A stretch of DNA of 43,890 nt from a virus. Positions 2,188 to 19,907 of this stretch are shown here, piece after piece; position 1 is the first letter of the stretch; each line of letters opens with the position of its first letter. The stretch lies in IMG/VR virus record IMGVR_UViG_3300022934_000044, positions 1 through 43,890 of that record. One strand, written 5' to 3'. The notes under the pieces were generated by a model. The model did not search any database, was not told the origin of the DNA, and was given only the letters and a program-made list of their open reading frames with translations. Position numbers and translations under genes: made by a program.

Positions 2188-2261
2188 TGGTGCCCAGTGA
2201 CAGAATCGAACTGCCAATAGATGATTACAAATCAACTGTTATACCATTTAACTAACCGGGC
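2188..2261 (-). tRNA. tRNA-Thr (anticodon UGU)
   Basis: A 74-nt cloverleaf reads GCCCGGT at the 5' end and ACTGGGC-A-CCA at the 3' end; the acceptor stem pairs in all seven positions with one G-U. The anticodon loop is TTTGTAA, giving anticodon TGT (Thr). The T-loop GTTCGATTC is canonical. CCA is encoded. The anticodon stem seems to carry one T-T mismatch. The 5' ten bases overlap the last codons of the upstream DUF2693-like gene. Confidence 0.9.
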
Positions 2262-2881: not shown

Positions 2882-3098
2882 TTGTGATCTTGTATTCCTG
2901 TGGTCCAGGTGTTGTAAACTCCATGCCCATTTTATTTCCGACATAAACTTTACCATTCCATTGCATCTTGATTTGATTTTGCACCATGAATACTTCGACA
3001 AACTTTCCTTTTTCAAATCTGTCTACATCTGCTGTAATAGTCTTGTCATTATCTGTACAAGTTACTACACACGTTTTATCATGTTCTGTTCTAATCAT
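2865..3098 (-). CDS. Conserved T4-like phage protein
   Basis: A 77-residue protein with a strong ribosome-binding site (AAGGAG, 6 nt before ATG 3098) just downstream of a near-perfect sigma-70 promoter. The pattern CVVTCTDNDKTITADVDRFE followed by VQNQIKMQWNGKVYVG and GMEFTTPGP is a small beta-rich protein conserved in marine T4-like phages. It is the first gene of an early operon that continues with the 86-residue protein, the DUF2693-like protein and tRNA-Thr. The function is unknown. Confidence 0.8.
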   Translation of the reverse strand: MIRTEHDKTCVVTCTDNDKTITADVDRFEKGKFVEVFMVQNQIKMQWNGKVYVGNKMGMEFTTPGPQEYKITNGRGF

Positions 3099-3099
3099 G

Positions 3100-3285
3100 T
3101 TATCTCCTTTTTAAATTATTATATTGTAAGTAGATCAAAAAGTCAACTATTAAAAAATTAAAAAACAATCCTGTAGTAGTAAGCATCACTCCAAAAAGCA
3201 TAGGGATAATAATTAGGAACAATCCTAGTTTAATAAGATAATCAAAGGCTAATTCAACCGGAACTGTCCAAAACAACCAAGTCAT
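3100..3285 (-). CDS. Small membrane protein
   Basis: A 61-residue hydrophobic protein with two probable membrane helices (about residues 15-33 and 36-54) and a basic C-terminus (NNLKRR). Its ATG overlaps the upstream GNAT-like gene's TGA (ATGA), so it is translated after that gene. No family is recognised. The downstream promoter at 3118-3146 lies inside its 3' end. Confidence 0.6.
   Translation of the reverse strand: MTWLFWTVPVELAFDYLIKLGLFLIIIPMLFGVMLTTTGLFFNFLIVDFLIYLQYNNLKRR
3118..3146 (-). promoter_or_regulatory. Sigma-70-type early promoter
   Basis: TTGACT, 17 nt, TATAAT, followed by an AAGGAG ribosome-binding site and the ATG at 3098. Confidence 0.85.
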
Positions 3286-3716
3286 ACAGTATACTCGAAA
3301 TTATTTGATTCAGTGTTTTCACTGACCCATTCAGCACCATTGCGTAGATGAAACTTCATTGCCATTTCAGTCTTAGGACTAAGAGTAACATATCGTTTAA
3401 CATTCTTAGTGTTCTTAATATGATCCGCGGCACGTAATACCATGTCACGCCCTGCACCTTTTGCATAACTCCATACTGTATAGAATATTGCAATATCACC
3501 ATCAACTGTACTAAACTCTGTTAGTTCTTGTTCATTAGTTGGAACTTTGTTTGCATAGGCAACACAAATAACCGCTTGTATTACACTATCTTCGTTTTCG
3601 AGTGCATAAACTTCTCTACCATTACTAATTCGATATGCTAACGGTAAGTGGCCTCGAACAGGATCGTCGGAACAGTGACCAATGTTCCAGTCATCTTGAA
3701 TTTGAATTAATTCCAT
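3282..3716 (-). CDS. GNAT-like acetyltransferase fold protein
   Basis: A 144-residue protein with the order of elements of a GNAT N-acetyltransferase: strands VYALENEDSVIQAVICVAYA, then IAIFYTVWSY, the acetyl-CoA pyrophosphate loop and helix KGAGRDMVLRAADHI (family pattern Q/RxxGxG/A), and a late helix KTEMAMKFHLRNGAEWV. The substrate cannot be read from the sequence. It overlaps the upstream GIY-YIG gene (TAATG) and the downstream membrane protein. Confidence 0.7.
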   Translation of the reverse strand: MELIQIQDDWNIGHCSDDPVRGHLPLAYRISNGREVYALENEDSVIQAVICVAYANKVPTNEQELTEFSTVDGDIAIFYTVWSYAKGAGRDMVLRAADHIKNTKNVKRYVTLSPKTEMAMKFHLRNGAEWVSENTESNNFEYTV

Positions 3717-4360
3717 TATTTGATTCCTAATATCAGTTTGACCCTGCGTAAATCACTTTCTGGATTGCACACAGGAATTCTATTGTACTTTTCGTAGTAC
3801 TTAACCATCAAAGCCATCTCATGATCTTTGACCTGACTGCTATGCATTGGCAAGTATGCTTGATAGCAATGATCGATATCTGCTTTATCAAAGTTTTCTT
3901 TAAATGCTGTACCACAACCGTAAGGCGAAAGCCTTTCGTTTCGTACTGTGCCTTTAAAGTCTGTACGGCGACCGAGCATACAATTACGTGTTACTGCTCT
4001 ACTTTCGCCAATATAAATTACACCTTCATGTAGGAAGTCTGCAGGACCAGTTGGAGGACCGTCCTTATATAATCCGTAAACATAACAACCAGCATCTTTT
4101 TTATCAAAACCCCAATTAGCACTCCAAGATTCGTCGATGTGATGCCATTTAGTAAACTCTAAACTCCAAGGGTCAACAAGTGTCATTTCTTGGGTACTAA
4201 ATGCATCTAGGCCACTAGTTGTGAAAACTTTCTTGAACGTATAACATAGTTCTTCAAGTTTATCTTCGTGTTGTGTAAAAATAGACTCTAGTACTTCTTG
4301 TTTGAGTCCATGTCCTCCACTAGCCTTTGCAATGTTTTCTGCGAGTATCTTCGCTTTCAT
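3716..4360 (-). CDS. GIY-YIG nuclease-like protein
   Basis: A 214-residue protein. The middle holds a GIY-YIG-type core: GCYVYGLY, about 20 residues later VIYIGES, then an Arg-rich segment (RNCMLGRRTDFKG) and, further on, an acidic helix (DHEMALMVKYYEKYN) followed by PVCN. This is the order of the tyrosines, Arg and metal-binding Glu in the GIY-YIG nuclease family. The N-terminal 80 residues are helical and unassigned. It may be a free-standing endonuclease or a DNA-processing enzyme; activity is an inference. Confidence 0.65.
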   Translation of the reverse strand: MKAKILAENIAKASGGHGLKQEVLESIFTQHEDKLEELCYTFKKVFTTSGLDAFSTQEMTLVDPWSLEFTKWHHIDESWSANWGFDKKDAGCYVYGLYKDGPPTGPADFLHEGVIYIGESRAVTRNCMLGRRTDFKGTVRNERLSPYGCGTAFKENFDKADIDHCYQAYLPMHSSQVKDHEMALMVKYYEKYNRIPVCNPESDLRRVKLILGIK

Positions 4361-4368
4361 GTTACACC

Positions 4369-4566
4369 TTACATCTTTGCTTCGCGTTCTTTACGAGCCT
4401 TGTTTGCTCTAGCAATACCACGCTTCTTGTCAAGTCTTTTTTGCTCACTTGGCTTAGTATAGTATTGACGTTCTTTAAGTTCAACTAGTAATCCGCTTTT
4501 TTTAATTTTACGTTTAAGTTGTCTTAATGCTTTTTCAACGTTATTATTTTTTACTATTACTTGCAT
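4369..4566 (-). CDS. rpsU: Ribosomal protein bS21 (copy 1)
   Basis: A 65-residue basic protein with the whole bS21 pattern: VIVKNNNVEKALRQLKRKIK, then GLLVELKERQYYTKPSEQKR and a Lys/Arg-rich tail. bS21 sits on the small subunit near the anti-Shine-Dalgarno region and helps initiation, so a phage copy could bias host ribosomes to phage mRNAs. It has a strong ribosome-binding site (AGGAGG just before ATG). It follows a small gene that has its own consensus early promoter, so it should be expressed early. A second, different bS21 is at 16694-16939. Confidence 0.93.
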   Translation of the reverse strand: MQVIVKNNNVEKALRQLKRKIKKSGLLVELKERQYYTKPSEQKRLDKKRGIARANKARKEREAKM

Positions 4567-4582
4567 ACTCCTCCTTTCCGTG

Positions 4583-4792
4583 TTAATGGAGCGTTCTCAT
4601 TGCTCCTTCATCATTTAAATCAATTCCAAAGTATTCTTCACAAATTGTAACGATACTTTCTGGAACTAAATCTTCTTCTTTACCTGCTGGTATATACAAG
4701 CCTTTCAAATCTCCATCAGCACTAATAATTAGTGCCCAGTCATCATCTTCCATGGCTTCACCAAGTTCAAAATATTCTTGGTTGTCTTGCAT
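4583..4792 (-). CDS. Small acidic phage protein
   Basis: A 69-residue acidic protein from ATG 4792. An upstream in-frame ATG at 4804 falls on the predicted transcription start of the promoter at 4811-4838, whereas the ATG at 4792 has GGAG 8 nt before it, so I prefer the latter. The sequence WALIISADGDLKGLYIPAG followed by VPESIVTICEEYFGIDL resembles a small protein of marine T4-like phages. The function is unknown. It heads the operon with bS21. Confidence 0.65.
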   Translation of the reverse strand: MQDNQEYFELGEAMEDDDWALIISADGDLKGLYIPAGKEEDLVPESIVTICEEYFGIDLNDEGAMRTLH

Positions 4793-4810
4793 TGTACACT
4801 CCATAACTAA

Positions 4811-4838
4811 ATTATATACTATTACTATTTAATGTCAA
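4811..4838 (-). promoter_or_regulatory. Sigma-70-type early promoter
   Basis: TTGACA and TATAAT, both perfect, with 16 nt between them, reading toward the small acidic protein and bS21 copy 1. Confidence 0.85.
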
Positions 4839-5617
4839 CCTATTTTTACATAATTGATCATTGTTTCGGGGTATTTGGTAATAAAGTTTTTACCGTGGCC
4901 TTTTACTTTGCCTTTTATTTTGAACGTAGTATCTACTTTTGGCAGTTGCTTAGTTTGATCAAAGTTTTTAAAGAAACTGACAAGGTTACCATCAAGTGAT
5001 CCATTTAATACATGGCAACCGAAACGTTCTACAAAACGAATTTCATTAAGTGTAAACATACCAAACACTTGTTCACCAATACGCCCAATGTGTTTACTTT
5101 CACTAAAGTCGTTTTTAATCTTTTTCTTTAGTTCTTTCTTTTCGAAACTATCAAAATATACTTTTGGAAGAACTGCTACAACACCAAAGTCGGAACGTTT
5201 CAAAGTACTTTTAGTAATAGATTCAAGTAGTGACTTCATAAAGTCGTTTAACGAATCAGCAATTACGGCAAATGCGTTTTCTTTGTGCAAATACTCTACA
5301 CTTTTACGAGCATTCTCACGGTCTTCATCAATTACTGTAATAGGCTGGAAGTCCGGAGGGTTCATACCGTACGGTGCTAATTGGCATAACATTGATTCTT
5401 TATTAGAGAAAAGTGTAGGATTGTCTTCTGAAAACCTACGTGTATCTCTATAATAGCCACCGTTGTGTCGATGTGTTGCAAATGCAACAGACAATACTTC
5501 TAGAGTATCGTATTCTTTTTTCTTTGTATTCGCCACGGGTTTTACCTTGCCTTCGTTTCTAAGTTCAAATGCTAGTTCTTGTGTTTTGAACTCTTTCTTT
5601 GTCATATCGCCTATCAT
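4835..5617 (-). CDS. Conserved phage protein of unknown function
   Basis: About 260 residues from ATG 5617, which has GAGG 6 nt upstream; ATGs at 5629 and 5605 are alternatives. Soluble and lysine-rich. The C-terminal 70 residues (TFKIKGKVKGHGK and around it) look like a small beta-barrel, perhaps OB-fold and nucleic-acid binding, but this is only an impression. It has its own early promoter (5650-5678) and is the only gene between that promoter and the next promoter downstream. Confidence 0.6.
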   Translation of the reverse strand: MIGDMTKKEFKTQELAFELRNEGKVKPVANTKKKEYDTLEVLSVAFATHRHNGGYYRDTRRFSEDNPTLFSNKESMLCQLAPYGMNPPDFQPITVIDEDRENARKSVEYLHKENAFAVIADSLNDFMKSLLESITKSTLKRSDFGVVAVLPKVYFDSFEKKELKKKIKNDFSESKHIGRIGEQVFGMFTLNEIRFVERFGCHVLNGSLDGNLVSFFKNFDQTKQLPKVDTTFKIKGKVKGHGKNFITKYPETMINYVKIG

Positions 5618-5649
5618 TAGAAGCCTCATTACCTAAGTGTTATAGTGTT

Positions 5650-5678
5650 ATAATAACACAAAGTATTATATTTGTCAA
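5650..5678 (-). promoter_or_regulatory. Sigma-70-type early promoter with overlapping palindrome
   Basis: TTGACA, 17 nt, TATTAT. The 15-nt palindrome GTGTTATTATAACAC (5645-5659) covers the -10 box, the place where an operator would block RNA polymerase. Confidence 0.75.
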
Positions 5679-5689
5679 CCAAAAAAATA

Positions 5690-6256
5690 TTAAAATATGT
5701 GATCTGCAATACCTAAATCAACCATTTGTTTGGCTGTGTAATATTGATCACTTGGGTTCTTAATAAATTTGTTACGTACTTCTTGGATTGTCATTCCGCT
5801 GGCATCTTTTAATATTTGTAAACAACGCATTTCACAGTTTTGGTTTTCTTTCATCTGTGCTTTCATGTCGTGTACTTTGGCTTCCATTGAGTCGGAATGT
5901 TGATGATTCATTGAACCTGCATTTTTACCAACATAACGCTCACCCTGTTTGCCACTAGCAAAAATTAAAAAGCCAGCACTCATAACAGCACCAATACCGA
6001 TAGTGCTAATGTTATGATAACTGTTCTTCATTACATCAATCAAAGCAAATGCTTCGTATAGGTCTCCGCCATATGTGTTAATGTAAAGTTTAAGGGTACG
6101 TTTTGGTTTCTTGTTTAAGTTTGCAGAAAGAATCCATTTGATTGCTTCACCTACATTTTCACTAGCAATGTCGCCGTGCAGATAATGGATATCACTGTCC
6201 AACAGACTTTTATCAATGGCGTCACTTGCAGTCCAATTATCGTATTTTGTAGGCAT
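5690..6256 (-). CDS. clpP: ClpP-like serine protease subunit
   Basis: A 188-residue protein, the usual ClpP core length. It has the oxyanion segment TYGGDLYEAFALID, the catalytic Ser93 in GAVMSAGFLIFASG, His118 in the MNHQH segment (bacterial MIHQP) and Asp170 in NPSDQYYTA, followed by GIADHIF. ClpP forms a tetradecameric chamber fed by ClpA or ClpX; no unfoldase is in this window, so it should use the host's. It may also mix with host subunits or act in capsid maturation. The phage also encodes ClpS (11484-11792) and a tmRNA whose tag ends in ALAA, both linked to Clp proteolysis. Confidence 0.92.
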   Translation of the reverse strand: MPTKYDNWTASDAIDKSLLDSDIHYLHGDIASENVGEAIKWILSANLNKKPKRTLKLYINTYGGDLYEAFALIDVMKNSYHNISTIGIGAVMSAGFLIFASGKQGERYVGKNAGSMNHQHSDSMEAKVHDMKAQMKENQNCEMRCLQILKDASGMTIQEVRNKFIKNPSDQYYTAKQMVDLGIADHIF

Positions 6257-6285
6257 ATTTTATTCTATTAGTTATGTACGTATAT

Positions 6286-6762
6286 TTATTCGATTGCCCA
6301 GGCTTTGTGACCAAGATCGTTTTGCTCGGCCCATCTAACAAATAGGCCTATTTCACGACCCATTGCTTCAATTTCCCATGGATAATCCCAGTAACTCATT
6401 TTGTCACGGTTGTATTCTACTCCGTCAAATTTAACATATTGACGTCCTTTCATCAGATCCTTCATTTGACCTGTTGCGAACTGTTTGACGTGTACCATTT
6501 CGTGACACACTGATTCTAGTGCTTTACGTAGTGGTTGTGATTTGTCAATTTCTATAGTAAATTCCTTAGGACGAGTATTATCATCTTCCCACATACAAGT
6601 ACCGCACTCGTTGTGTTTTTCATACATATCTTTTGTGTATCGTACTGTAACTTCTAGTGAGTTTGTCATTCGCTTAGACATAAGCATATATGCACAGAAA
6701 TGAACTAGGCTTTCTGTGTATTTCTTTTGACTGCGATTAGCATTTACTACGGTAACTTGCAC
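6286..6762 (-). CDS. SprT-like zinc metallopeptidase
   Basis: A 158-residue protein with a zinc-binding HExxH helix, SVCHEMVHVKQF (HEMVH at 87-91), preceded by an amphipathic strand (PKEFTIEID) and followed by a third-ligand region near WEIEAMGRE, where a Glu could complete the site. This is the layout of small SprT/WSS1-type peptidases. The start is GTG 6762, with GAGG upstream in the end of the previous gene. The role in infection is unknown. Confidence 0.75.
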   Translation of the reverse strand: MQVTVVNANRSQKKYTESLVHFCAYMLMSKRMTNSLEVTVRYTKDMYEKHNECGTCMWEDDNTRPKEFTIEIDKSQPLRKALESVCHEMVHVKQFATGQMKDLMKGRQYVKFDGVEYNRDKMSYWDYPWEIEAMGREIGLFVRWAEQNDLGHKAWAIE

Positions 6763-6764
6763 TA

Positions 6765-6959
6765 TTACTTTTCCTCTTGTTTAGTGTATGCACTTCTGTC
6801 TTGTGAAACCAGATAACAATCGGCTTGTATCTGTGCAATTAGATTATCAATTTCTAAATTTGAACCCTTGACTGCACCATATTTTAGTTCTCTTAATCTG
6901 TCGGCATCTTTTTTAATACCATCAATCTTGTCGCACATTTGGCTAATTTTATGAAGCAT
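6765..6959 (-). CDS. Small helical phage protein
   Basis: A 64-residue charged helical protein, MLHKISQMCDKIDGIKKDAD and on, with heptad-like spacing. It has a very strong ribosome-binding site (AAGGAGGG) and its own early promoter (6989-7017), and is followed 2 nt later by the metallopeptidase gene, so it leads that operon. The function is unknown. Confidence 0.65.
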   Translation of the reverse strand: MLHKISQMCDKIDGIKKDADRLRELKYGAVKGSNLEIDNLIAQIQADCYLVSQDRSAYTKQEEK

Positions 6960-6988
6960 TGATCCCTCCTTATTTTTAAACTATAAAT

Positions 6989-7017
6989 AGTTTAACAGAA
7001 CGAAAGGCAAAAGTCAA
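6989..7017 (-). promoter_or_regulatory. Sigma-70-type early promoter with overlapping palindrome
   Basis: TTGACT, 17 nt, TAAACT. A perfect inverted repeat AAACTAT-AA-ATAGTTT (6978-6993) overlaps the -10 box. The upstream flank ATTTCCAC is shared with the promoter at 20442. Confidence 0.75.
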
Positions 7018-7038
7018 GTGGAAATTTTCCTATTTTTA

Positions 7039-7380
7039 ATGATAAAACACGCTATTGTTGACCTTGGTTTTCAACCATTTGGTCTCGGTAGTTCCAAAAA
7101 ATATTATTTTGGTTGGCCCGCTCACAAACAACATTATGTCCCACACGGACTCTTAACCGTGCTTGTAATGGCGTCTTACACGCACATAAACGTCGCTGTA
7201 GCGTTGGGAATACTAGATTATATACTACACTGGCATACAGACTTTACTAAGACTAAAATACGTAATTATTTTGAATGGACTAGCAAAGACAGACAGTTTT
7301 GGATTTTGAATGCTGTAGATCAAATACTACACTTTACTGGATACTATATAATTGTGTTGATTGCTACTTCACAAATTTAA
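7039..7380 (+). CDS. DUF3307-like membrane protein
   Basis: A plus-strand protein of 113 residues from ATG 7039 (a GTG at 7018 would add seven). It is hydrophobic with about three or four membrane segments and conserved-looking His/Asp positions: KHAIVDLG, VPHGLLTVL, GILDYILHWHTD and LNAVDQILHFTGYYIIV. The ordered H...HG...D..LH....DQ..H pattern resembles the DUF3307 membrane family. It is alone on this strand here, and its 3' end overlaps the convergent late gene by 17 nt. Confidence 0.65.
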   Translation: MIKHAIVDLGFQPFGLGSSKKYYFGWPAHKQHYVPHGLLTVLVMASYTHINVAVALGILDYILHWHTDFTKTKIRNYFEWTSKDRQFWILNAVDQILHFTGYYIIVLIATSQI

Positions 7381-8731
7381 ACGCAAACTTACCGCCAATA
7401 CGTGAACTATAATAATTCTTAGAACCATCTAGTGCAACAGTACCTTGGAAGTTTGGAGGGTAAACAGCCTGGAAGCCAGTTACACGAATGTCGTCACCCT
7501 TCTTACCAACTTTGGTATAAAGTTGTATAATACTTGCTGTGTTTAATAATGAAATTGCTTCTGTAGAAAATTTTGGATTTTCGTTTACCTTGAGTGCAAC
7601 CTTTTTAGCCAACGCACTTGTGATAGCATATCCGGTATTAAACCCTTGAACAGTCATATCAAAGTTAACACCTTCAACCATTTTAGTTGCTTCGTCACTC
7701 ATGTTTTCAAAGTCTTGTTTACCTTGCTTCATATACTCGTCTGCTTCTTTTCTTAGTGCAGGAGTTGATAACTGAAACTTTTCGCCTAAATCAAAAGGTG
7801 CTTCTTTTGCACTCTTAGTTGCAATAGTTGTAACTATGTCTGCAACAAACTTTGTATTTGACATTAGTTCGGCATTGTCTTTGTTCTTTTGTAAAGAGTC
7901 ATACAAGTTCTTTGCACTAGCAGATGCACCAGCGCCACCTTTAGAACTAATACCAATCTCTTTGCCGTCTGGAGCAAGGAACACGCTATCGACTAAGTTG
8001 TAGTTCATTGCCATAGGCCAAAAGATATTAAGGTCTTTCCAGTTAGCGCCACCGGCTAACTCTTGTCTTGCCTGTTCGGCGTCACCTTGTACAAGGCCAC
8101 CCATCATAGCAACCGGACCCATAATTTCACCAAAGTAATCTCTAATAGATTCTAGTTTTTCAATCTGCCCTGGGAACTCAGGCATTTGTCCATTAGATGC
8201 TGATTCAAGTGCAGTTACAAGAACTTCACCTTCCTGGCCAGCATTAGTTCTTACAGTTTGAATAATCTGTTCTGGACCTTTAAATTTGTTTTGAGATTTA
8301 ATTAGTGTTTGTGGATCTAAACCAGTATCAATCTTTAACGCACCCTTGGTACCTAATTTCCAACCTGATGGAATTTGACTGTTACCCCAAACACCCATTA
8401 GGTCTGCACCTACTTGTCTAAGATATCTACCCCAGTAAATGTCTTTACCATCGCTAGTTCTAATCTGTGCAATACCAAATGCTAGTGTTCCTGCGTTAGC
8501 AGTATTAACCCATTCAATTTTAGCATTGTTATTTTTTTCAAACTCTGCAATGGCTTCGTCACGTTCTTCTGCTGTAGCAAATTTACCACCTTGTGAAAGA
8601 TCTGGAATTGCAATCGCTTGTACGAACTCTGCCTTTTCGCCATTGTCGTGGATATATGGCTCTCCAGGTTTACGCCCGAAAATGCCTTTAGACTCTATTA
8701 CTTGTGTTTGTTTAAATTCGAAAAACCTCAT
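7364..8731 (-). CDS. Large late phage protein, probably virion-associated
   Basis: A 455-residue soluble protein, MRFFEFKQTQ and on. A T4-type late promoter (ATAAATAC) lies three bases before the predicted message start, so the mRNA has almost no leader. Late timing and the MR/K-x-x-E-x-K type N-terminus, shared with other late proteins here (39576-41126, 34510-35409), suggest a virion or assembly role. No catalytic motif is clear. It is Ala/Gly/Lys-rich with many helical stretches. Confidence 0.6.
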   Translation of the reverse strand: MRFFEFKQTQVIESKGIFGRKPGEPYIHDNGEKAEFVQAIAIPDLSQGGKFATAEERDEAIAEFEKNNNAKIEWVNTANAGTLAFGIAQIRTSDGKDIYWGRYLRQVGADLMGVWGNSQIPSGWKLGTKGALKIDTGLDPQTLIKSQNKFKGPEQIIQTVRTNAGQEGEVLVTALESASNGQMPEFPGQIEKLESIRDYFGEIMGPVAMMGGLVQGDAEQARQELAGGANWKDLNIFWPMAMNYNLVDSVFLAPDGKEIGISSKGGAGASASAKNLYDSLQKNKDNAELMSNTKFVADIVTTIATKSAKEAPFDLGEKFQLSTPALRKEADEYMKQGKQDFENMSDEATKMVEGVNFDMTVQGFNTGYAITSALAKKVALKVNENPKFSTEAISLLNTASIIQLYTKVGKKGDDIRVTGFQAVYPPNFQGTVALDGSKNYYSSRIGGKFAFKFVK

Positions 8732-8733
8732 AG

Positions 8734-8747
8734 CACTAGTATTTATG
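8734..8747 (-). promoter_or_regulatory. T4-type late promoter
   Basis: GCATAAATACTAG on the minus strand (ATAAATA at 8740-8746). The expected start is about 8734, only 3 nt before the ATG at 8731. Confidence 0.75.
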
Positions 8748-9438
8748 CTATTTTTGGAAATAATGCGTTAGTGCAGAATTCGTCAACATCTGCTTCATTA
8801 AGTCCTAATGACTTCATAACTCTAGGTGTATGTGGATTTTGTTGCTGGTTATGGCAGTAGTAGTTTTGAGCACCTGCTGTAATATCTACACTAGCATTGC
8901 CTGTATACTCAGGAACACTATCAAACCATACACGCAGGTTTTCTAAAGCAAGATCTACAATAGCAGTTGCTTCTTCTTCTGTGCGAACATTACCTGCGGC
9001 AACCATTCCTGGTGAAAAGATGTTCTGTGCCCATTCGGGTAGTTCACGTTGTTTACTAGGAATAAAATCTTTAACAGCATCTAAGTACCATTCTACAAGA
9101 GGATGTTCTTCACCGCCTGAACTTGCTGAAAAATCATGAAATGCACCTGTCATTTTATTCTTACCTGCAATAACATCAAAGCCGTAAATAGGACCATCAT
9201 TTGATAACACAGGAAAACAACATACGTGCATCATCCACAGTCCGTGCGAGTCTCTTGCGTCTACAACATCAATGTGTGCTCTGCGTACATGATCATTTGC
9301 CCATACTCTGTTGATCCAACCGTTCTCAGGCTGATTAAATTTGTTTAATCCTTTTTCTTCTATTTCAGTGGCTTTCTCATCAAAGATGTTTAATATTTCA
9401 TTTTGGCATTCAATTAGTTTATCCCAAATGACACTCAT
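8743..9438 (-). CDS. pcyX: PcyX-like ferredoxin-dependent bilin reductase
   Basis: A 231-residue protein of the ferredoxin-dependent bilin reductase family (PcyA/PebS/PcyX). Visible family features are RRAHIDVVDA, a strand LWMMHVCCFPV, IYGFDVIAGKNKMTGAFHDF with its two aspartates, and a C-terminus ending FCTNALFPKIA. These enzymes reduce biliverdin IXa using ferredoxin; the phage branch PcyX is known to make phycoerythrobilin, but this one's product is inferred. The ATG at 9438 overlaps the halogenase stop (ATGA); the longer TTG start only adds five codons. Heme oxygenase, which makes biliverdin, is two genes upstream in the same operon. Confidence 0.82.
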   Translation of the reverse strand: MSVIWDKLIECQNEILNIFDEKATEIEEKGLNKFNQPENGWINRVWANDHVRRAHIDVVDARDSHGLWMMHVCCFPVLSNDGPIYGFDVIAGKNKMTGAFHDFSASSGGEEHPLVEWYLDAVKDFIPSKQRELPEWAQNIFSPGMVAAGNVRTEEEATAIVDLALENLRVWFDSVPEYTGNASVDITAGAQNYYCHNQQQNPHTPRVMKSLGLNEADVDEFCTNALFPKIA

Positions 9439-10955
9439 GATCTGTTTCCCCAATCTCTATTATACATACCAGGTGTTGTCCAATCAACATCGTCTTTGTT
9501 CATCTTTTCTAAAAGTTCCATGGCTTTGTCTTTTTCTAATCCTGGTGATGCTGTTTTAATTCCTGTTGTGTTAAGCCATAGTTTCCAATTCATCTCAGCA
9601 AAGATTTCTGTATTACGGGGGAAAAACTGATAGTCATCGTCCCACATAACTGTAGGTGTATAGTTATGTTTAAAGTTTGTTGCAATCTCTGTAAGTTTAT
9701 CTGTTTCCTTAAAGTTTTTATAAACGTGTTCCCAAAACTTACCTTTACGTGGATTATTAAAATAATGTAGTGCTACAAAGTTCATAGTATCTTCATAGAC
9801 TGCTGTCATATCTTCGTTAAACTTTAATCTATCTTCTTCAGTATAACTTAGTTTTTCTAAAACTTTTAGGCCACTAGCACCAATTGTAAGTAATGCAAGT
9901 CCTGTTGATTCTAACGGTTCAATAAATCCACTAGCAAGTCCTACACTAAAACAGTTGCCTCTCCAGTTGTTTGCATTATATTCTGGCTTGAAAGGAACAT
10001 GATTAAACTGTCCTGTTCTTAGTCTGTGTTCACCCCAATGCTGTACAAAGAAATCTTCTGCTTCTTGTTTAGTGGTAAGTTCACTGTTGTAACATAGTCC
10101 ACTACCAATACGATCTTTAACAGGTGTTTTCCAAATCCAACCTAGGTCACACGCCTGTGCAGTAACGTATGGAAGTTGTACTTCATCTTCTGTTTCGTAA
10201 TCTATTTGACTTGCTACTGCGGCATTAGTAAACAGCATATGACTTCTGTCAATCCATTTACTGTCGGGCAATGCATTTGAAAGTAAACGTTTAAAGCCAG
10301 TACAGTCTACAAAAAAATCTGCTGTAACTTTTGTACCGTCATCTAATGTTACATATTCAATAACACCATCAGTAACCTTTGGAGCATCAATGTGTTTTTG
10401 AATATGTGTTAGTCTTGGATACTTCTTATTAAGATAATCAGATAAGAAGTTTGCTAGTTTAACAGCATCTAAATGATATCCTACATGAGCAGTACCACCG
10501 CAAGGTGTTGTGTTATTTGGAATCTTTTTATCTACAACAGAAACTTTATGCCAAGCAATATATTTTTCTAATTCAACCTCATTAATGCCGCCGTCACGAG
10601 CAAGGTCAATGCTATCAAGTGTTCCGTGTTCTGTATGTGTTACAGGAAAAAAGAATGGTTGCCAAATGTTAATGCCGTCGCCCTTCCAGTTTGGAAAGTA
10701 AGTCCCTGTTTTAATAGTTGCGTCACAAGCCTTTGTCCATAGTTCTCTAGGAATATTACAATCGTCTAAAAAATGATCAAACCCTAAAATAGTTGCTTCA
10801 CCTACGCCAACAATAGGAACATTAGGACTTTCAATAAGTGTGATTTGTGTTTCGGGTAAGTTTGATAATGCATAAGCGGCCGTAAGCCAACCAGCACTTC
10901 CTCCACCTACAATACAAATGGACCTAGCACGGCTACGACCTACTACTTCAGTCAT
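9435..10955 (-). CDS. Flavin-dependent (tryptophan-type) halogenase
   Basis: A 506-residue protein of the PrnA-like halogenase family. It has the FAD-binding GGGSAGW (17-23), GVGEAT (50-55), a Lys at 82 (IKTG) at the place of the catalytic Lys that forms the lysyl-haloamine, and WIWKTP (273-278) matching the WxWxIP motif except for T in place of I. Later segments GLASGFIEPLESTGL are typical. Related phage halogenases (VirX1 from a cyanophage) accept many aromatic compounds. It overlaps heme oxygenase upstream by 8 nt and the bilin reductase downstream by 4 nt, so its substrate could be a tetrapyrrole; that is inference. Confidence 0.9.
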   Translation of the reverse strand: MTEVVGRSRARSICIVGGGSAGWLTAAYALSNLPETQITLIESPNVPIVGVGEATILGFDHFLDDCNIPRELWTKACDATIKTGTYFPNWKGDGINIWQPFFFPVTHTEHGTLDSIDLARDGGINEVELEKYIAWHKVSVVDKKIPNNTTPCGGTAHVGYHLDAVKLANFLSDYLNKKYPRLTHIQKHIDAPKVTDGVIEYVTLDDGTKVTADFFVDCTGFKRLLSNALPDSKWIDRSHMLFTNAAVASQIDYETEDEVQLPYVTAQACDLGWIWKTPVKDRIGSGLCYNSELTTKQEAEDFFVQHWGEHRLRTGQFNHVPFKPEYNANNWRGNCFSVGLASGFIEPLESTGLALLTIGASGLKVLEKLSYTEEDRLKFNEDMTAVYEDTMNFVALHYFNNPRKGKFWEHVYKNFKETDKLTEIATNFKHNYTPTVMWDDDYQFFPRNTEIFAEMNWKLWLNTTGIKTASPGLEKDKAMELLEKMNKDDVDWTTPGMYNRDWGNRS

Positions 10956-11487
10956 TATCGACCTCCATCATTTCTTTGAATGTTTCTGTAGCAAAGTCAA
11001 AACATATCTTTGCTTCTTCAGCCATATCATCGTTCAACTGTTCTCTTATGGCTGTTTTCAGTTCGTCAACAGGAGCATCAAATTGATACAATCTTCCTTC
11101 TCCTGGAATTTTCTTTTTAATCATTTGTCCACCGCTTAGGTCACCCATGTGTCTAACATATACGTGAGCCATGACTTTATCTGGATCTCCCATAATTGTT
11201 CTCATATGTTCTAGATACTTTTCTGTTACTTTTAAAGTTTTAGGCATTTCTTGTTTAGGCCATAACTCTTTAAAATCATCTAGTATGCTCGGGGAACGTC
11301 TAATAGCAGGATGAGGCAATAAGCCATGTGTCATTGCTATTGCTTCTAAAATATTGTATTGAATATGTTGATTATATAAAAATGTTGCATAAAGTTCTTT
11401 GTCAATTTTACCTGACATTAAAACTTTTACAAATGCTTGGCGTTCTGCGTTCTTATGGTGTTCCCACGTTGCTTCTTTTAAGTTCAT
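10948..11487 (-). CDS. ho1: Heme oxygenase
   Basis: A 179-residue protein. The proximal His11 lies in ATWEHHKNAE with the family T-x3-H-x3-E spacing, and the distal helix is VRHMGDLSGGQMI (GDLSGG 115-120), the strongest signature. It cleaves heme to biliverdin, CO and iron using reduced ferredoxin or another electron donor. At 179 residues it is shorter than cyanobacterial enzymes (about 240), lacking mainly the C-terminal tail. The start overlaps the clpS stop (ATGA) and the halogenase start lies in its last codons. It supplies biliverdin to the bilin reductase at 8743-9438. Confidence 0.93.
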   Translation of the reverse strand: MNLKEATWEHHKNAERQAFVKVLMSGKIDKELYATFLYNQHIQYNILEAIAMTHGLLPHPAIRRSPSILDDFKELWPKQEMPKTLKVTEKYLEHMRTIMGDPDKVMAHVYVRHMGDLSGGQMIKKKIPGEGRLYQFDAPVDELKTAIREQLNDDMAEEAKICFDFATETFKEMMEVDND

Positions 11488-11792
11488 TCTTTTTCCACTT
11501 TGATCTGCAATGGGAATCCGTTTGCTCTGCTCAAAGTGGTTGCTTCTACGCTTTTTTGTTCTGCAATTTCAAATGCGTAAACGCCAACTACTGCACTTCC
11601 ATCTTCATGAATTTGTAGAGTTAGATTTTTTGCTGTGTCAACAGAATGCTTAAAAGTAGTTACTAGCACATCGATCACGAAATCCATTGGTGTTTGGTCA
11701 TCATTAATAAAAATAACTGAGTACCTTTCGGGCTCAGCAATTTTTATCTTAATCTTTTCGTCAATTTGTACATCCATATTATTACTTATCAT
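11484..11792 (-). CDS. clpS: ClpS N-end-rule adaptor
   Basis: A 102-residue protein with the ClpS core: SVIFINDDQTPMDFVIDVL (substrate-pocket N30-D31-D32), TLQIHEDGSAVVGVYAFEIAE with His62 at the second pocket position, and a final strand PLQIKVE. ClpS hands N-degron substrates to ClpA and so to ClpP. I chose ATG 11792, with AGGAG 8 nt before it; the longer open frame to 11933 just runs back into hsp20. It follows hsp20 after a hairpin (11822-11841) and overlaps heme oxygenase downstream. Confidence 0.9.
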   Translation of the reverse strand: MISNNMDVQIDEKIKIKIAEPERYSVIFINDDQTPMDFVIDVLVTTFKHSVDTAKNLTLQIHEDGSAVVGVYAFEIAEQKSVEATTLSRANGFPLQIKVEKE

Positions 11793-11820
11793 TGTATGAT
11801 CTCCTACCAGTAAATAATGA

Positions 11821-11842
11821 TAGTGGGGATTGCTCCCCACTA
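11821..11842 (-). terminator. Hairpin between hsp20 and clpS
   Basis: AGTGGGG and CCCCACT pair across a 6-nt loop. No strong T-run follows on the minus strand, so it may be a partial terminator or an mRNA-processing or stabilising element. Confidence 0.5.
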
Positions 11843-11859
11843 CCGACCTTTTAAGTGTA

Positions 11860-12309
11860 TTACTTAACTTCGATTGATCTTGCTTTTTTAGCCTCTGGAA
11901 TAATTCTTTCCAAAGCAATTCTAAGCAAGCCATCTTTTAGTTCAGCACCTTGTACTACTACATCGTCTGCAATAGTAAATGATTTAGTAAAGTGCCTTTT
12001 ACTAATACCTCTGTATTGTACACCATCCGCTTCATCGTCAGTTTTTGACTCTTGGATTGATTTAACAGTTACCACACCGTCTTCGTATGATACGTCAATA
12101 TCCTTTTTGCCAAAACCAGCAAGTGCTAATTCAATATCGTAAGTATAGTCGCCTGTTTTTACAATATTGTATGGCGGATAGTTAGTGTTAAAAGTAGGTG
12201 CATTGAAGAAGTCGTCTTCAATCATTCTTTCGAATCTATCAAAGATAGGATCGAACCCTACTGATACGGGTCTTAGTTGGTTAAAGATTGATAGTGATTT
12301 GTTTGTCAT
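11860..12309 (-). CDS. hsp20: Small heat-shock protein Hsp20/IbpA family
   Basis: A 149-residue alpha-crystallin-type chaperone. The N-terminal arm (1-45, with FDPIFDRFERMIEDDF) is followed by the crystallin beta-sandwich YDIELALAGFGKKDIDVSYE, VTVKS, YRGISKRHFTKSF and GAELKDGLLRIALERIIPE, and a C-terminal S-I-E-V that fits the IxI/V dimer-joining motif. It holds unfolded proteins for DnaK. It lies just downstream of dnaK and has its own late promoter and a 5' hairpin of the same design as dnaK's. The ribosome-binding site is AAGGAG. Confidence 0.93.
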   Translation of the reverse strand: MTNKSLSIFNQLRPVSVGFDPIFDRFERMIEDDFFNAPTFNTNYPPYNIVKTGDYTYDIELALAGFGKKDIDVSYEDGVVTVKSIQESKTDDEADGVQYRGISKRHFTKSFTIADDVVVQGAELKDGLLRIALERIIPEAKKARSIEVK

Positions 12310-12342
12310 TTGTTTTCTCCTTATTAAGCAAGTTGTTTGTCA

Positions 12343-12367
12343 TGTAAGACCTATCAAGCATCTTACA
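12343..12367 (-). promoter_or_regulatory. 5'-leader hairpin of hsp20, paired with the dnaK leader
   Basis: TGTAAGA and TCTTACA form a perfect 7-bp stem around the 11-nt loop TGCTTGATAGG (minus strand). It is followed 15 nt later by TTGCTTAATAAGGAG, which holds the ribosome-binding site. The dnaK leader (14292-14318) has the same loop length and nearly the same loop, with a different but fully paired stem. Confidence 0.75.
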
Positions 12368-12380
12368 ATCTTATTTATCT
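12366..12380 (-). promoter_or_regulatory. T4-type late promoter of hsp20
   Basis: GATAAATAAG (ATAAATA at 12372-12378) overlaps the dnaK stop codon. The expected start near 12366 puts the hairpin at the very 5' end of the message. Confidence 0.6.
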
Positions 12381-14263
12381 ACCTCTTCAAACTCGGCGTC
12401 TACAACGTTTTCATCTTTCTTAGATGTTGTTTCTGCTTCTTCTGAAGTGTTAGATTCTTGTTGTGCCTTGTAAACTGCTTCACCTAACTTCATTGCCACT
12501 TGTGATAGTGCTTCTGTTTTAGATTTAATATCTTCAACATTGTCACCTTTAAGTGCTTCTTGTAAGTTAGTCTTAGCATCTTCAATTGATGTTTTAATAT
12601 CTTCCGATACTTTATCACCGTGTTCTTTTAACTGTGATTCAACTGAGTGTACAAGACCGTCAGCATTGTTTCTAGCATCTACGGCTTCTCTCTTTTGTTT
12701 GTCAGCCTCTTTATTTGCTTCTGCATCTTTGACCATTTGTTCAATTTCTGCATCACTCAAACCGCCGTCTGATTTAATAGAGATTGTTTGTTCTTTGCCT
12801 GTGCCTTTATCTTTTGCTGATACGTTAACAATACCGTTTGCGTCAATATCAAATGTTACTTCAATTTGAGGCATACCTTTTGGTGCTGGTGCAATACCTT
12901 CTAGATTAAAGAGACCAAGTTCTTTATTATCTACAGCCATTTCACGCTCACCTTGTAATACCTTAATAGTAACTGCTGATTGATTATCTTCCGCAGTACT
13001 AAACACTTGTGATTGTTTAGTTGGGATTGTTGTATTCTTTTCAATTAGTTTAGTAGTAACACCGCCTAGTGTTTCAATACCCAATGAAAGCGGAGTAACG
13101 TCAAGTAGCAATACATCTTTAACATCACCACTTAATACACCTGCTTGAATTGCGGCACCTAGTGCTACAACTTCATCTGGGTTAACACCTTTGTTTGGAT
13201 CTTTACCAAAGAATGTTTTAACAGTTTCTTGTACCTTAGGCATACGTGTCATACCACCTACTAGTACAACGTCTGTAATATCACCTTTGCTTACACCTGC
13301 GTCTTTAAGAGCAGTTTCACAAGGTTTAATTGAACGTTGGATTAGTTCGTCTACAAGACTTTCAAACTTAGCACGAGTAATTTTTAAATTCAAGTGCTTA
13401 GGTCCAGAAGCATCTGCTGTAATAAATGGTAGACTGATGTCAGTTTGTGTTGTGCTTGACAATTCAATCTTTGTTTTTTCAGCCGCTTCACGTACACGTT
13501 GTAGTGCTAGTTTGTCTGTTGAAATATCTACACCAGACTCTTTCTTAAACTCGTCTACAATGTATTGTGTAAGAACAGCATCAAAGTCTTCACCACCTAA
13601 TGCTGTGTCACCGTTTGTTGAAAGTACTTCAAATACTCCGTCACCGAGGTCAAGTACTGATACGTCAAATGTACCACCACCTAAGTCATACACAACAATC
13701 TTGCCTGACTCTTTTTTATCTAGTCCGTAAGCAAGTGCCGCCGCTGTTGGTTCATTTACAATACGTAAAACTTCTAGTCCTGCAATTTTACCTGCATCTT
13801 TAGTTGCTTGACGTTGTGCATCGTTAAAGTATGCTGGTACTGTAATAACTGCTTGTGTTACAGTTGAGCCTGTATACTTTTCAGCAGTTTCTTTCATCTT
13901 GGTTAATACTTCTGCTGATACTTGTTGTGGGGAAAGTTCTTTACCTTTTGTTTCTACCCACGCATCACCGTTCTTTGCTTCTACAATTTTGTATGGAAGC
14001 GTTTTAGCATCACGTGTGATTTCTTTTGATTTAAACTTACGTCCAATTAGACGCTTTGACGCATAGATTGTGTTCTCTGCGTTAGTAACTGCTTGACGCT
14101 TTGCTGATACACCTACAAGTGTACCATCGTCAGTATAGGCTACAATACTAGGTGTAGTTCTATTACCTTCTACGTTTTCAATTACTTGGGGATCTTTGCC
14201 GCTTAGTATAGCAACACATGAATTTGTGGTACCCAAATCGATACCAATAACTTTATTAGCCAT
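12371..14263 (-). CDS. dnaK: Hsp70 chaperone DnaK
   Basis: A 630-residue, full-length DnaK. The nucleotide-binding domain starts [16 protein letters not shown], with [43 protein letters not shown] and [10 protein letters not shown]; then the linker [13 protein letters not shown], the substrate-binding beta domain, the helical lid and an acidic C-terminus ([11 protein letters not shown]). It folds and holds proteins in the host cytoplasm with DnaJ and GrpE, which are not in this window. The ATG at 14263 has AAGGAG 6 nt upstream; the longer TTG start is not needed. The full-length phage copy is striking, since DnaK is seldom seen in phages. Confidence 0.97.
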
Positions 14264-14291
14264 TTTTTTCTCCTTATTAAGCAAGTTTTAA

Positions 14292-14318
14292 TTACAAAAC
14301 CTATTCAGCATTTTGTAA
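14292..14318 (-). promoter_or_regulatory. 5'-leader hairpin of dnaK
   Basis: TTACAAAA and TTTTGTAA form a perfect 8-bp stem around the 11-nt loop TGCTGAATAGG (minus strand), followed by ACTTGCTTAATAAGGAG with the ribosome-binding site, as in the hsp20 leader. Confidence 0.75.
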
Positions 14319-14320
14319 CA

Positions 14321-14335
14321 TATAAGTATTTATCA
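14321..14335 (-). promoter_or_regulatory. T4-type late promoter of dnaK
   Basis: GATAAATACTTAT (ATAAATA at 14327-14333). The expected start is about 14321, three bases before the leader hairpin. Confidence 0.7.
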
Positions 14336-14346
14336 CTTATATAGTA

Positions 14347-14375
14347 TATATAGTGTTAAATCGACTATTTTTCAA
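14347..14375 (-). promoter_or_regulatory. Sigma-70-type early promoter of dnaK
   Basis: TTGAAA, 17 nt, TATATA. With the late site just downstream, dnaK appears to be transcribed in both phases. Confidence 0.6.
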
Positions 14376-14384
14376 GTCTAAATG

Positions 14385-14945
14385 TTACCGATTTATAAAA
14401 TAAAACTGATTGATACTATATCTACCACTTCCTATACACCTAGATACACTATGTTGTAAAAAACTTGGAAATAATATAGTTGTATTATTTTTTAATGTAG
14501 GCTTATATCCAAAGTCTGTAAACTCTAAATCTCCACCTTCAAATGCTTTTGGTTCTTTCCATAAAACTGTCACGGCAGATAATGTGCCATGATCAGCATG
14601 ATGATCATATACTGCTCCGTTTCCATAATAGTTTACCTGTGTTACATCATGGTTAGTGTAAGGTAAGTATCCTGCAAACGGATTGTCTTTTAGTTGCTCT
14701 TGCAAATAAAATAGTTTCCTATTAAAGTTCAAGACGTAACTTTTTTCTCTGTTATCTTTATAGTGTGTATCCATGTGAATAGCACACATTTTATCATTTG
14801 CTCTAGGGTCGCCAGTTTCTGCTGACGGTCTAAAGTATGCGTCTAGTGAATTAATCTCTACAAGGATTTCTTTTAGTTCCCACGGTTCGTAAAAATCGTA
14901 GATGATACTATGATGAAAAGGTTCATGTAGATTCTTAACAAGCAC
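14385..14945 (-). CDS. 2OG-Fe(II) oxygenase (prolyl-hydroxylase type)
   Basis: A 186-residue protein with YGNGAVYDHHADHG (iron-binding H-A-D), the strand LSAVTVLWKEP, the family turn FEGGDLEFTDF, the distal His in PSFLQHSVSRC and the 2-oxoglutarate-binding Arg in GSGRYSINQF. This is a complete P4H-like active site. It directly follows the GMP reductase gene (1-nt overlap). The substrate is unknown. Confidence 0.87.
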   Translation of the reverse strand: MLVKNLHEPFHHSIIYDFYEPWELKEILVEINSLDAYFRPSAETGDPRANDKMCAIHMDTHYKDNREKSYVLNFNRKLFYLQEQLKDNPFAGYLPYTNHDVTQVNYYGNGAVYDHHADHGTLSAVTVLWKEPKAFEGGDLEFTDFGYKPTLKNNTTILFPSFLQHSVSRCIGSGRYSINQFYFINR

Positions 14946-16096
14946 TAGTTACCTATTGTGTTTTTTTCGTATACAGTATTGTGTGTTTGTGTACAACGTA
15001 CAAATGTAGCACATCTACTTAGATGTTTAAGTCTTATTGCGCCAGCATAAGTACAAGCAGAACGCAACCCACCCAAGATATCTTGAACAGTAGTAGCCAC
15101 TGCTCCTCGGTAAGGCACAAGAATTTCTCTTCCTTCACTGCTTCTATACTCCTTAAGGCCTCCAAAGTGTTTGTCGTTCGCGGCCTTCGAACTCATTCCG
15201 TAGAATTGTACAAACTTTTTTTCTTCAATTTTATTTTGTATACCACCTTGATCAAAAGTAACTTCATCTGTAGTATACATTTTAGTAATTACTTCTCCAC
15301 CACCTTCATCGTGCCCGGCGAGCATTCCTCCAAGCATAACAAAATCTGCTCCTGCGGCAAAAGCCTTTGCAACATCTCCAGGCGATACGCATCCTCCATC
15401 GGCAATAATGTGTCCACCGAGACCGTGTGCGGCGTCGGCACATTCAATGACTGCGGAGAGTTGTGGGAATCCAACCCCAGTTTGAATCCTAGTAGTACAC
15501 ACGCTCCCGGGACCAATACCCACCTTAACAATATCCGCTCCACTTAAAATTAACTCCTCTGTCATTTCTCCGGTAACTACATTACCTGCAATAATTACAA
15601 TATGTGGATATAAACGTCTAAACTCTGCAACAAAGTCACGGAAACGATTTGAATATCCGTTAGCAACATCGATACAAACATAACGTAACTTATCACCTGT
15701 TTGTTCATATACTTGACGAAACTTTTCATGATCGTGATCAGTAATACCAATGCTCATTGCTACATACTGGGTACGTTCATCGTATTCACTATCAAAGTAA
15801 CATACTAGATCATTTACACTATATGTCTTTTTAAGACAGGTAAACATTTTTACTTCAGCAAGTTTGTCTGCAACTTCAAATGTTCCTACACCATCCATGT
15901 TAGCGGCCATAATAGGAATACCCCGCCAGTGTCTATGATCAGGTCGGATTTGCTCCATGCTCATATCTTGTGGCTTCCAGTTACGCCAAGTAAATCCTCT
16001 TTCAAGATCTACTTCTTTACGACTTCCTAAAGTTGAACGTTTAGGACGTAGTAATACATCTTTGTAGTCAAGTTTAATGTCTTGGTCGATTCGCAC
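14945..16096 (-). CDS. guaC: GMP reductase (IMPDH/GuaC family)
   Basis: A 383-residue TIM-barrel enzyme. It has the N-terminal DYKDVLLRPKRS, the GMP-reductase-type substrate region PIMAANMDGVGT, the catalytic loop GIGPGSVCTTR with Cys200, FVMLGGMLAGHDE, FYGMSSKAAN and EGREILVPYRG. There are no CBS domains, which favours GMP reductase over IMP dehydrogenase. It would turn GMP into IMP with NADPH, feeding purine pools during phage DNA synthesis. I chose GTG 16096 because GGAG lies 6 nt upstream; a TTG at 16126 is the longer choice. It overlaps the upstream oxygenase. Confidence 0.88.
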   Translation of the reverse strand: MRIDQDIKLDYKDVLLRPKRSTLGSRKEVDLERGFTWRNWKPQDMSMEQIRPDHRHWRGIPIMAANMDGVGTFEVADKLAEVKMFTCLKKTYSVNDLVCYFDSEYDERTQYVAMSIGITDHDHEKFRQVYEQTGDKLRYVCIDVANGYSNRFRDFVAEFRRLYPHIVIIAGNVVTGEMTEELILSGADIVKVGIGPGSVCTTRIQTGVGFPQLSAVIECADAAHGLGGHIIADGGCVSPGDVAKAFAAGADFVMLGGMLAGHDEGGGEVITKMYTTDEVTFDQGGIQNKIEEKKFVQFYGMSSKAANDKHFGGLKEYRSSEGREILVPYRGAVATTVQDILGGLRSACTYAGAIRLKHLSRCATFVRCTQTHNTVYEKNTIGN

Positions 16097-16694
16097 TTTT
16101 AACTCCGTAGTTAAACGATACTGCAATACGTTCGTTGTTGCTTTTGTTTTGTGTTACTTCATGTTTTGCCCAGCCAGGAAATATTGCTACCATGCCAGGT
16201 TTAGGCGGATATGTTGCCATTGTGCTTGTGATAGTATTATACTGACTTAGATTATCAGGGATATAATACTGTGCATCATCAGGACGATAAAATCTTAAAT
16301 CACCCATATTCTCATCTGGTACATCAATGTAGAATACTCCACTTAGTAATGCATCTTGATGATTGTGTAACGTGTGATATGCTCCCGGTCCATTAATGTT
16401 AATCCAAAAGTTTTGAAATTCAACTTCTGGTAATCCGCAGACTTTAGTTACATACGCCATAGCCTCATCTAATTCTGTTAAAAATTTTCTAAGTACTGGA
16501 ACGTACTGTGGATCTACTAGATCAACATTTTCAATACTACGACTGTGCCACCCACCTTGATTGCTGTTACCATGCAAGTCTGGTTCTTTAGTTCTCCAGT
16601 CATGTGCAATATGTTTCATAGCATTTCTGTCTACCTTTTCTAAATAGCCGGCAAACACAAATTGCGGAAACCATAAGTCTGCTTTAAATTCCAT
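16074..16694 (-). CDS. 2OG-Fe(II) oxygenase, TIGR02466-like
   Basis: A 206-residue protein. The core FWININGPGAYHTLHNHQDA, LLSGVFYIDVP, the late PGMVAIFPGWAKHEVTQN and the final NERIAVSFNYG match the phage-rich family of putative 2OG-Fe(II) oxygenases typified by TIGR02466, with the His pair in HTLHNH, the distal His in WAKHEV and Arg in NERIAV. It sits between bS21 copy 2 and guaC. Confidence 0.85.
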   Translation of the reverse strand: MEFKADLWFPQFVFAGYLEKVDRNAMKHIAHDWRTKEPDLHGNSNQGGWHSRSIENVDLVDPQYVPVLRKFLTELDEAMAYVTKVCGLPEVEFQNFWININGPGAYHTLHNHQDALLSGVFYIDVPDENMGDLRFYRPDDAQYYIPDNLSQYNTITSTMATYPPKPGMVAIFPGWAKHEVTQNKSNNERIAVSFNYGVKSANRPRH

Positions 16695-16939
16695 TAATAA
16701 CCAAATTCCCTTTCTTTACGGCGAACTTCTTTAAGCCAACGGGCACGACCTGCCGCTTTTGCTTTCTTACGTCTTTCACTAGGTTTAATATAGTGTTGAC
16801 GTTCACGTAGTTCTTGGAGTACTCCATCTTGTGAAACTTTTCTTTTGAATGTTCGTAGTGCTTTATTAAAGTCGCCATTTTTTACTTCGACGGTTAACCC
16901 TTTGAAATGGTTATCGTCTTTCTTCCGTTGTCTTGACAA
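16694..16939 (-). CDS. rpsU: Ribosomal protein bS21 (copy 2)
   Basis: An 81-residue bS21: LTVEVKNGDFNKALRTFKRK, then GVLQELRERQHYIKPSERRK and a basic tail. It has a 13-residue N-terminal extension (MSRQRKKDDNHFK) that copy 1 lacks. No ATG is available; the TTG at 16939 has AAGGAG 9 nt upstream and is the likely start. A consensus early promoter lies within the upstream gene (16998-17027). The two copies share the core pattern but differ at many positions, so they are not a recent duplication. Confidence 0.92.
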   Translation of the reverse strand: MSRQRKKDDNHFKGLTVEVKNGDFNKALRTFKRKVSQDGVLQELRERQHYIKPSERRKKAKAAGRARWLKEVRRKEREFGY

Positions 16940-17315
16940 AATACTGTTCTCCTTCTGCTATCTGTCGAAGATCGTAGACTCTATTATTACTAATTAAATT
17001 ATATGGTCTTTCGTTGTTACTTGTCAAGTAAAAAGTTTTAGATAATGGAAGAAGATATCCAATAAGCCAAACACAACTACTAGGCACATTATCTACATCA
17101 ATAATAATGTAATCTACGTAATTAGAAACCTCAATAACCCAATCCTGTTCTTCTTTGCTATCAAAAAGGTACAGATTAATATCCGCTTTAATATTCTTTG
17201 CAACTTCATTAAACTGTTCTTTTATATTGTCGCTAGGATTAACCAAAAGAAAACTTAAATTATTATTCATAAGTTTATCTGGAGGTGTGATCAGATTAAT
17301 AATAGGTTCACTCAT
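16911..17315 (-). CDS. Conserved phage protein, alpha/beta fold
   Basis: A 134-residue soluble protein with alternating strands and helices: LSFLLVNPSD, INLYLFDSKEEQD, YVDYIIIDVDNVP, WLIGYLLPLSKTFYLTSN. The fold looks like a Rossmann-like or TIR/receiver-type sheet, but no catalytic motif is clear. Its 3' end carries the promoter for bS21 copy 2 and overlaps that gene's start. Confidence 0.6.
   Translation of the reverse strand: MSEPIINLITPPDKLMNNNLSFLLVNPSDNIKEQFNEVAKNIKADINLYLFDSKEEQDWVIEVSNYVDYIIIDVDNVPSSCVWLIGYLLPLSKTFYLTSNNERPYNLISNNRVYDLRQIAEGEQYFVKTTEERR
16998..17027 (-). promoter_or_regulatory. Sigma-70-type early promoter for bS21 copy 2
   Basis: TTGACA, 18 nt, TATAAT, inside the upstream gene and 60-90 nt before the bS21 start. 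Confidence 0.8.
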
Positions 17316-17405
17316 AACAAAATTACTTATTTAATTATTTGTGGATCTTGTGCCAAACTGAATTATCAGTTTGTTCGGAATTTTGAACGTATGTGTCTGG
17401 TTCAA

Positions 17406-19906: not shown

Positions 19907-19907
19907 A

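Follow-up and report, generated by a model that had tools for sequence, protein, structure and literature searches.

A lineage of viral flavin-dependent halogenases (FDHs) is dedicated to the phage operon that encodes a heme oxygenase (HO) and a PcyX-type bilin reductase, and in the same operon the HO is paired almost invariably with ClpS. The hemO-pcyX cassette and phage halogenases were already known separately; no earlier report of a halogenase clade dedicated to this operon, or of ClpS paired with HO, was found in the open literature. The stretch of DNA analyzed, referred to as the window, is a virus record of 43,890 bases with a GC content of about 36-38%. On its minus strand HO (11487-10948), FDH (10955-9435), and the bilin reductase (9438-8743) follow each other. 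HO and FDH overlap by 8 nt, while FDH and PcyX overlap by 4 nt when the reductase is counted from the ATG at 9438. The TTG start at 9453 suggested by the ORF caller is unnecessary, and the reductases of several relatives begin 4 nt before the FDH stop. ClpS overlaps HO by 4 nt as well, so the coupled run comprises at least four genes. The features of the region are:

12371..14284, minus strand: DnaK (Hsp70) (PF00012, 2.2e-271)
11860..12309, minus strand: Hsp20 small heat-shock protein (PF00011, 8.7e-16)
11819..11844, minus strand: GC-rich hairpin of 11 bp with a 4-nt loop, terminator/processing-like, between Hsp20 and ClpS
11484..11789, minus strand: ClpS, N-degron adaptor of ClpAP (PF02617, 5.2e-27); start ATG at 11789 placed from relatives
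10948..11487, minus strand: HO, heme oxygenase, predicted to convert heme to biliverdin (PF01126, E=1.2e-22)
9435..10955, minus strand: FDH, flavin-dependent halogenase, 506 aa (PF04820, 1.7e-89; phrog_2928, 3.5e-99)
8743..9438, minus strand: PcyX-type ferredoxin-dependent bilin reductase, predicted phycoerythrobilin synthase, ATG at 9438 (PF05996, 2.9e-17)
7364..8731, minus strand: 455-aa protein of unassigned function, starting 11 nt past the end of PcyX

The first-pass annotation had named the three central genes as a heme oxygenase, a halogenase, and a PcyX-like reductase overlapping by 8 and 4 nt. The overlaps are confirmed, and the three assignments are borne out by the profile matches PF01126, PF04820, and PF05996 and by the similarity of the reductase to the structure 5owg. 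The HO has an invariant histidine, H11, at the heme-ligand position, and the distal helix GDLSGGQ is present in the window protein. The nearest solved structure for the reductase is PcyX_EBK42635 (5owg; 7.2e-82), while PcyA matches at about 1e-11 (9e-12 or weaker). H71, D88, and D57 are invariant across 11 aligned rows; in the row of PcyX_EBK42635 the first residues are approximate, and only aligned core positions were used. D57 is found in 11/11 rows where PcyA has a Glu, and going by the chain offset it may correspond to Asp55, the PcyX-specific catalytic Asp (PMC11480375). The route formed by HO and PcyX has been characterized for relatives (PMC11480375), as the first-pass annotation had held when it described the pair as a known way from heme to phycoerythrobilin. 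By analogy with these relatives, the HO of the window would produce biliverdin and its PcyX phycoerythrobilin. An AetD-like nitrile synthase, where a heme-oxygenase-like fold is combined with a halogenase (PMC10654658), was also considered since a nitrilase-type gene occupies the same place as the FDH in some relatives. It was excluded as this HO resembles true heme oxygenases, carrying GDLSGGQ as well as the His, and PcyX comes after it in the operon.

Viral scans using the three proteins of the window returned 4 FDH, 258 PcyX, and 112 HO relatives, and further viral scans were performed with a cassette-FDH profile and, in two cases, with FDHs of relatives, in addition to one scan of bacterial genomes. 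An FDH 52-100% identical to that of the window is encoded by 24 other IMG/VR contigs, three of which are identical to the window in the cassette genes while the rest represent about a dozen distinct sequences. HO is located directly upstream of FDH in all 24, and PcyX is found downstream in each of the 23 contigs that run on; the remaining one stops inside FDH. A nitrilase-type gene separates FDH and PcyX in three of the 24. That the order recurs in 24 viral contigs, with FDHs down to 52% identity, rules out that the genes are neighbors by chance. The overlaps between the three genes have persisted across this divergence, with 8-20 nt shared by FDH and HO and 4 nt by FDH and the next gene where an ATG could be placed. 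The 455-aa protein is encoded next after PcyX in most of the HO-FDH-PcyX contigs, and searches of Pfam, PHROGs, and NCBIfam gave zero matches for it.

The next FDHs share at most 37% identity with those of the cassette, and among the matches listed from the scan with the cassette-FDH profile they comprise at least 64 viral and 79 bacterial loci. None of these 143 listed loci has an HO, PcyX, or nitrilase gene within the fetched flanks of at most 5-6 kb. The first-pass annotation had tied the halogenase to the bilin genes, and among the matches listed from the viral and bacterial scans no halogenase of the cassette clade was found in relatives lacking those genes. One phage (the record of L024) lacks FDH in the slot between HO and PcyX and encodes three other FDHs elsewhere; the one compared, a member of a tandem, is about 29% identical to the window FDH.

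The conserved block extends beyond the three genes of the earlier annotation, as it also includes ClpS, Hsp20, and DnaK. Of the 86 distinct contigs with enough sequence, 85 have ClpS as the gene immediately before HO, in 40 cases with a 4-nt overlap (loci L001-L165, L334-L376). Searching in the other direction, from ClpS, yielded 43 loci, all with Hsp20 upstream and 37 with HO downstream, and in many relatives DnaK/Hsp20 are found ahead of ClpS-HO. These adjacencies define Hsp20 (often with DnaK)-ClpS-HO-PcyX as the constant unit, to which FDH is a clade-specific addition. In the alignment ClpS displays INDDQTPMDFV and QIHEDG, corresponding to NDD-TPM and the histidine of the N-degron pocket; the row of E. 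coli ClpS is included as a guide to the eye only. The hairpin in the Hsp20-ClpS gap is found in 69/71 relatives where Hsp20 is the gene immediately before ClpS and in 1/9 with DnaK in between, and its sequence differs among them, raising the question of whether it may be a terminator, an attenuator, or an RNA-processing site. A few genes downstream the window also encodes a ClpP-family protease (PF00574; 5690-6256, minus strand), which together with ClpS, Hsp20, and DnaK makes up a proteostasis set.

Since ClpS and Hsp20, and not FDH, are the most constant partners of HO-PcyX, the halogenase might share nothing but its expression with the bilin genes. It would then belong to a phage stress or takeover operon, being required when its neighbors are and at a matching level, and act on an unrelated substrate, for instance an aromatic residue of a phage or host protein, free tryptophan or indole, or a host metabolite. 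We consider such plain co-expression a serious contender that follows closely on the explanation favored below. Against it counts that among the matches listed the cassette clade is never found apart from HO-PcyX, and that its members always lie between these two genes and not elsewhere in the block. The nearest other viral FDHs add to the case for it. They very often form tandem pairs next to gp3/neck homologues and a gene for a product of 149 aa, or keep company with 2OG-Fe(II) oxygenases and EndoV (L183-L247), hinting at modification of virion proteins by the other tandem viral halogenases and suggesting that the ancestral role was virion- or protein-related.

When FDH is absent, the HO-PcyX junction is either empty or occupied by a coiled-coil gene, a nitrilase-type hydrolase, or 2OG-Fe(II) oxygenases. 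The nitrilase-type gene encodes a CN-hydrolase (PF00795) with the catalytic Glu-Lys-Cys conserved. It has entered the slot several times (L028:5102-5884, L033:3989-4753, L048:3990-4760, L100, L123, and L135), yet only about 13 of its best 80 loci are associated with HO/PcyX, the rest lying elsewhere in marine phages. Position in the slot is on its own weak evidence for a shared function, because the slot takes other genes and the nitrilase is mostly found elsewhere. This wandering phage gene and the other occupants could mean that the junction is a hot spot for insertions and FDH a passenger with no functional link to its neighbors. We find this rather unlikely. In contrast to the nitrilase, every member of the FDH clade among the matches listed belongs to the cassette, and FDH has been retained down to 52% identity with the gene overlaps kept and under purifying selection. 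The slot does admit passengers, but the behavior of FDH is different.

The cassette FDHs are monophyletic (support 100) and join other viral, not bacterial, FDHs in the tree. On the PcyX tree the presence of FDH requires two changes, either one gain and one loss or two gains, and all carriers are found inside one clade of 19 rows. Five close relatives have kept HO-PcyX with no FDH in the slot. Pairwise dN/dS values are 0.08-0.29 for FDH and 0.05-0.12 for PcyX; those of FDH are comparable to, or slightly higher than, those of its neighbors, and they indicate that the cassette FDHs are under purifying selection.

The window FDH scores 301 bits against PF04820, where the cut-off is 21. K82 and E349, which we take to be the equivalents of K79 and E346 of PrnA, are invariant in an alignment of 58 FDHs, and the motifs GGGSAGW and FIEPLESTG (FxxPxxSxG) are intact. 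An AlphaFold2 model (pLDDT 93), made from an alignment that left out three rows from a phage collection, superimposes over its full length on the tryptophan halogenases Thal, PrnA, and RebH with TM-scores of 0.84-0.88 (0.87 for Thal/PrnA). The window FDH shares the fold and the catalytic Lys and Glu with these three enzymes, but it is only 24-27% identical to them, its C-terminal substrate segment is not recognizably conserved, and its residue at the position of the pocket histidine, His99, is replaced. Located beside a conserved Pro-Phe, this position holds His in 47/49 other FDHs and Q, S, A, or E in 9/9 cassette FDHs. It is presumably the indole-contacting histidine of the pocket (H-P-F motif), which stacks on the indole in PrnA. 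In the cassette FDHs Trp119, Tyr158, and Ile277, the last belonging to WxWxIP, have likewise given way to other residues. Loss of the indole-pocket histidine disfavors plain tryptophan as the substrate and names no alternative. Most solved relatives of the FDH are tryptophan halogenases, which speaks for co-expression with an unrelated substrate, while the replacement of this histidine in every cassette member speaks against it. The idea of the first-pass annotation that an indole made in parallel could be halogenated found no support either, as no indole gene was noticed and the cassette FDHs lack the His of the indole pocket.

WxWxIP, a motif considered to keep the enzyme from mono-oxygenation (PMC8407142), reads WIWKTP in the window, and its Ile is changed to Thr in 9/9 cassette FDHs and kept in 45/49 others. 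This substitution could point to an FDH-like enzyme that takes the bilin as its substrate but degrades it or acts as a flavin mono-oxygenase instead of halogenating it. Such an activity appears quite improbable to us given that all cassette members retain K82, E349, both tryptophans of WxWxIP, and FxxPxxSxG, a tunnel motif reported for active FDHs.

Both the hemO-pcyX cassette and a three-gene hemO-pcyA/X-valaS cassette have been described in marine phages, including the pelagiphage Mosig EXVC030M (Nat Commun 2024, PMC11480375). The window resembles the published hemO-pcyX cassette in that HO is followed by PcyX in a pelagiphage-like virus. The published genes are, however, directly adjacent, while in the window they are separated by a halogenase gene of 1.5 kb, and ClpS, Hsp20, and DnaK are found directly upstream. 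Mosig has no halogenase and carries 2OG oxygenases upstream instead, and neither a halogenase nor ClpS is mentioned in the main text of PMC11480375. 5-aminolevulinate synthase (AlaS) is located elsewhere in 5/18 halogenase-bearing records. As for phage halogenases, VirX1 of cyanophage Syn10 (PDB 6qgm; PMC8407142) has the catalytic Lys, GGGxxGW, and FxxPxxSxG in common with the window FDH (profile E=1.8e-70). The Syn10 FDHs differ in forming a tandem pair among uncharacterized genes and in falling outside the cassette clade, where the pocket His is replaced. The halogenase of Pelagibacter phage HTVC008M likewise belongs to a virus of SAR11, but it is only 27-29% identical and lies between a 2OG oxygenase and the terminase with no HO/PcyX annotated nearby. 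A search of the open literature found no report linking an FDH to hemO-pcyX or pairing ClpS with HO, and it turned up neither a halogenated bilin from nature nor an FDH acting on a bilin.

Contigs with hemO-pcyX have been assigned to pelagiphage-like viruses (PMC11480375), and the HO and PcyX of Mosig are the nearest ones from an isolate. The window NrdA shares about 70% identity with its Mosig counterpart, and equally so with those of T4-like cyanophages. A permuted, two-piece tmRNA of alphaproteobacterial type (23783-24179, minus strand) has the long predicted tag ANDKALDNVSFVNFGEQKDVRLSEDFALAA; it fits a SAR11-like host but is not proof of one. From these sequence features the host is likely alphaproteobacterial and possibly SAR11. 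No direct DNA match to isolates was obtained for positions 1-20000 of the window, and neither gp23, terminase (phrog_2), nor Mosig TerL had a match in the halogenase-bearing records, possibly because these are fragments. The window further encodes a pectate-lyase-like tail protein (29820-31448, minus strand) with an Mtd_N domain match slightly under the cut-off, and a class 3 lipase (42388-43170, plus strand), which is read from the opposite strand to most genes and adjoins two tRNAs.

The explanation that we place first, tentatively and with less than even confidence, is that the FDH halogenates a linear tetrapyrrole. A clade confined between two enzymes of one pathway would most simply share their substrate, and VirX1 is a known example of a phage FDH whose active site is large and open and takes bulky substrates (PMC8407142). 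The conserved phage operon Hsp20/DnaK-ClpS-HO-[FDH]-PcyX would be expressed while infecting a probably alphaproteobacterial host. HO would open heme to biliverdin, iron, and CO, and PcyX would reduce biliverdin to phycoerythrobilin. A phage halogenase would have been inserted between the two genes once or twice, had its pocket changed, and then been co-inherited with them. This enzyme would halogenate biliverdin or the product of PcyX, giving a halogenated bilin as the end product. Going by what is known of the family, it would require FADH2, O2, and a halide, the latter taken from seawater. The 18 records gave no match to the flavin reductase family PF01613, so FADH2 would be supplied by a reductase of the host. 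5-aminolevulinate synthase (TIGR01821) is encoded in 7/20 records (those of L003, L016, L017, L018, L024, L025, and L051), five of them FDH carriers, and these phages may thus both promote the making of heme and cleave the heme made. The fuller proposal, that HO, the halogenase, and PcyX constitute a single pathway by which marine phages, in a heterotrophic host that lacks phycobilisomes, convert heme to a chlorinated or brominated bilin, is more doubtful than the choice of substrate. The benefit to the phage can be guessed at as light or redox protection, signaling, or chemical trapping of the bilin.

The reason why phages carry HO and a bilin reductase beside heme-synthesis genes has been described as still enigmatic (PMC11480375), and a halogenase lineage locked into the HO-PcyX cassette is a concrete clue to the purpose of these genes. 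If the FDH does act on a bilin, natural halogenated tetrapyrroles of a new class would result, and the cassette could not be explained in full by a role in phycobilisomes or by iron release alone. The near-invariant pairing of ClpS and HO furthermore ties viral heme breakdown to directed proteolysis, a link that can be tested.
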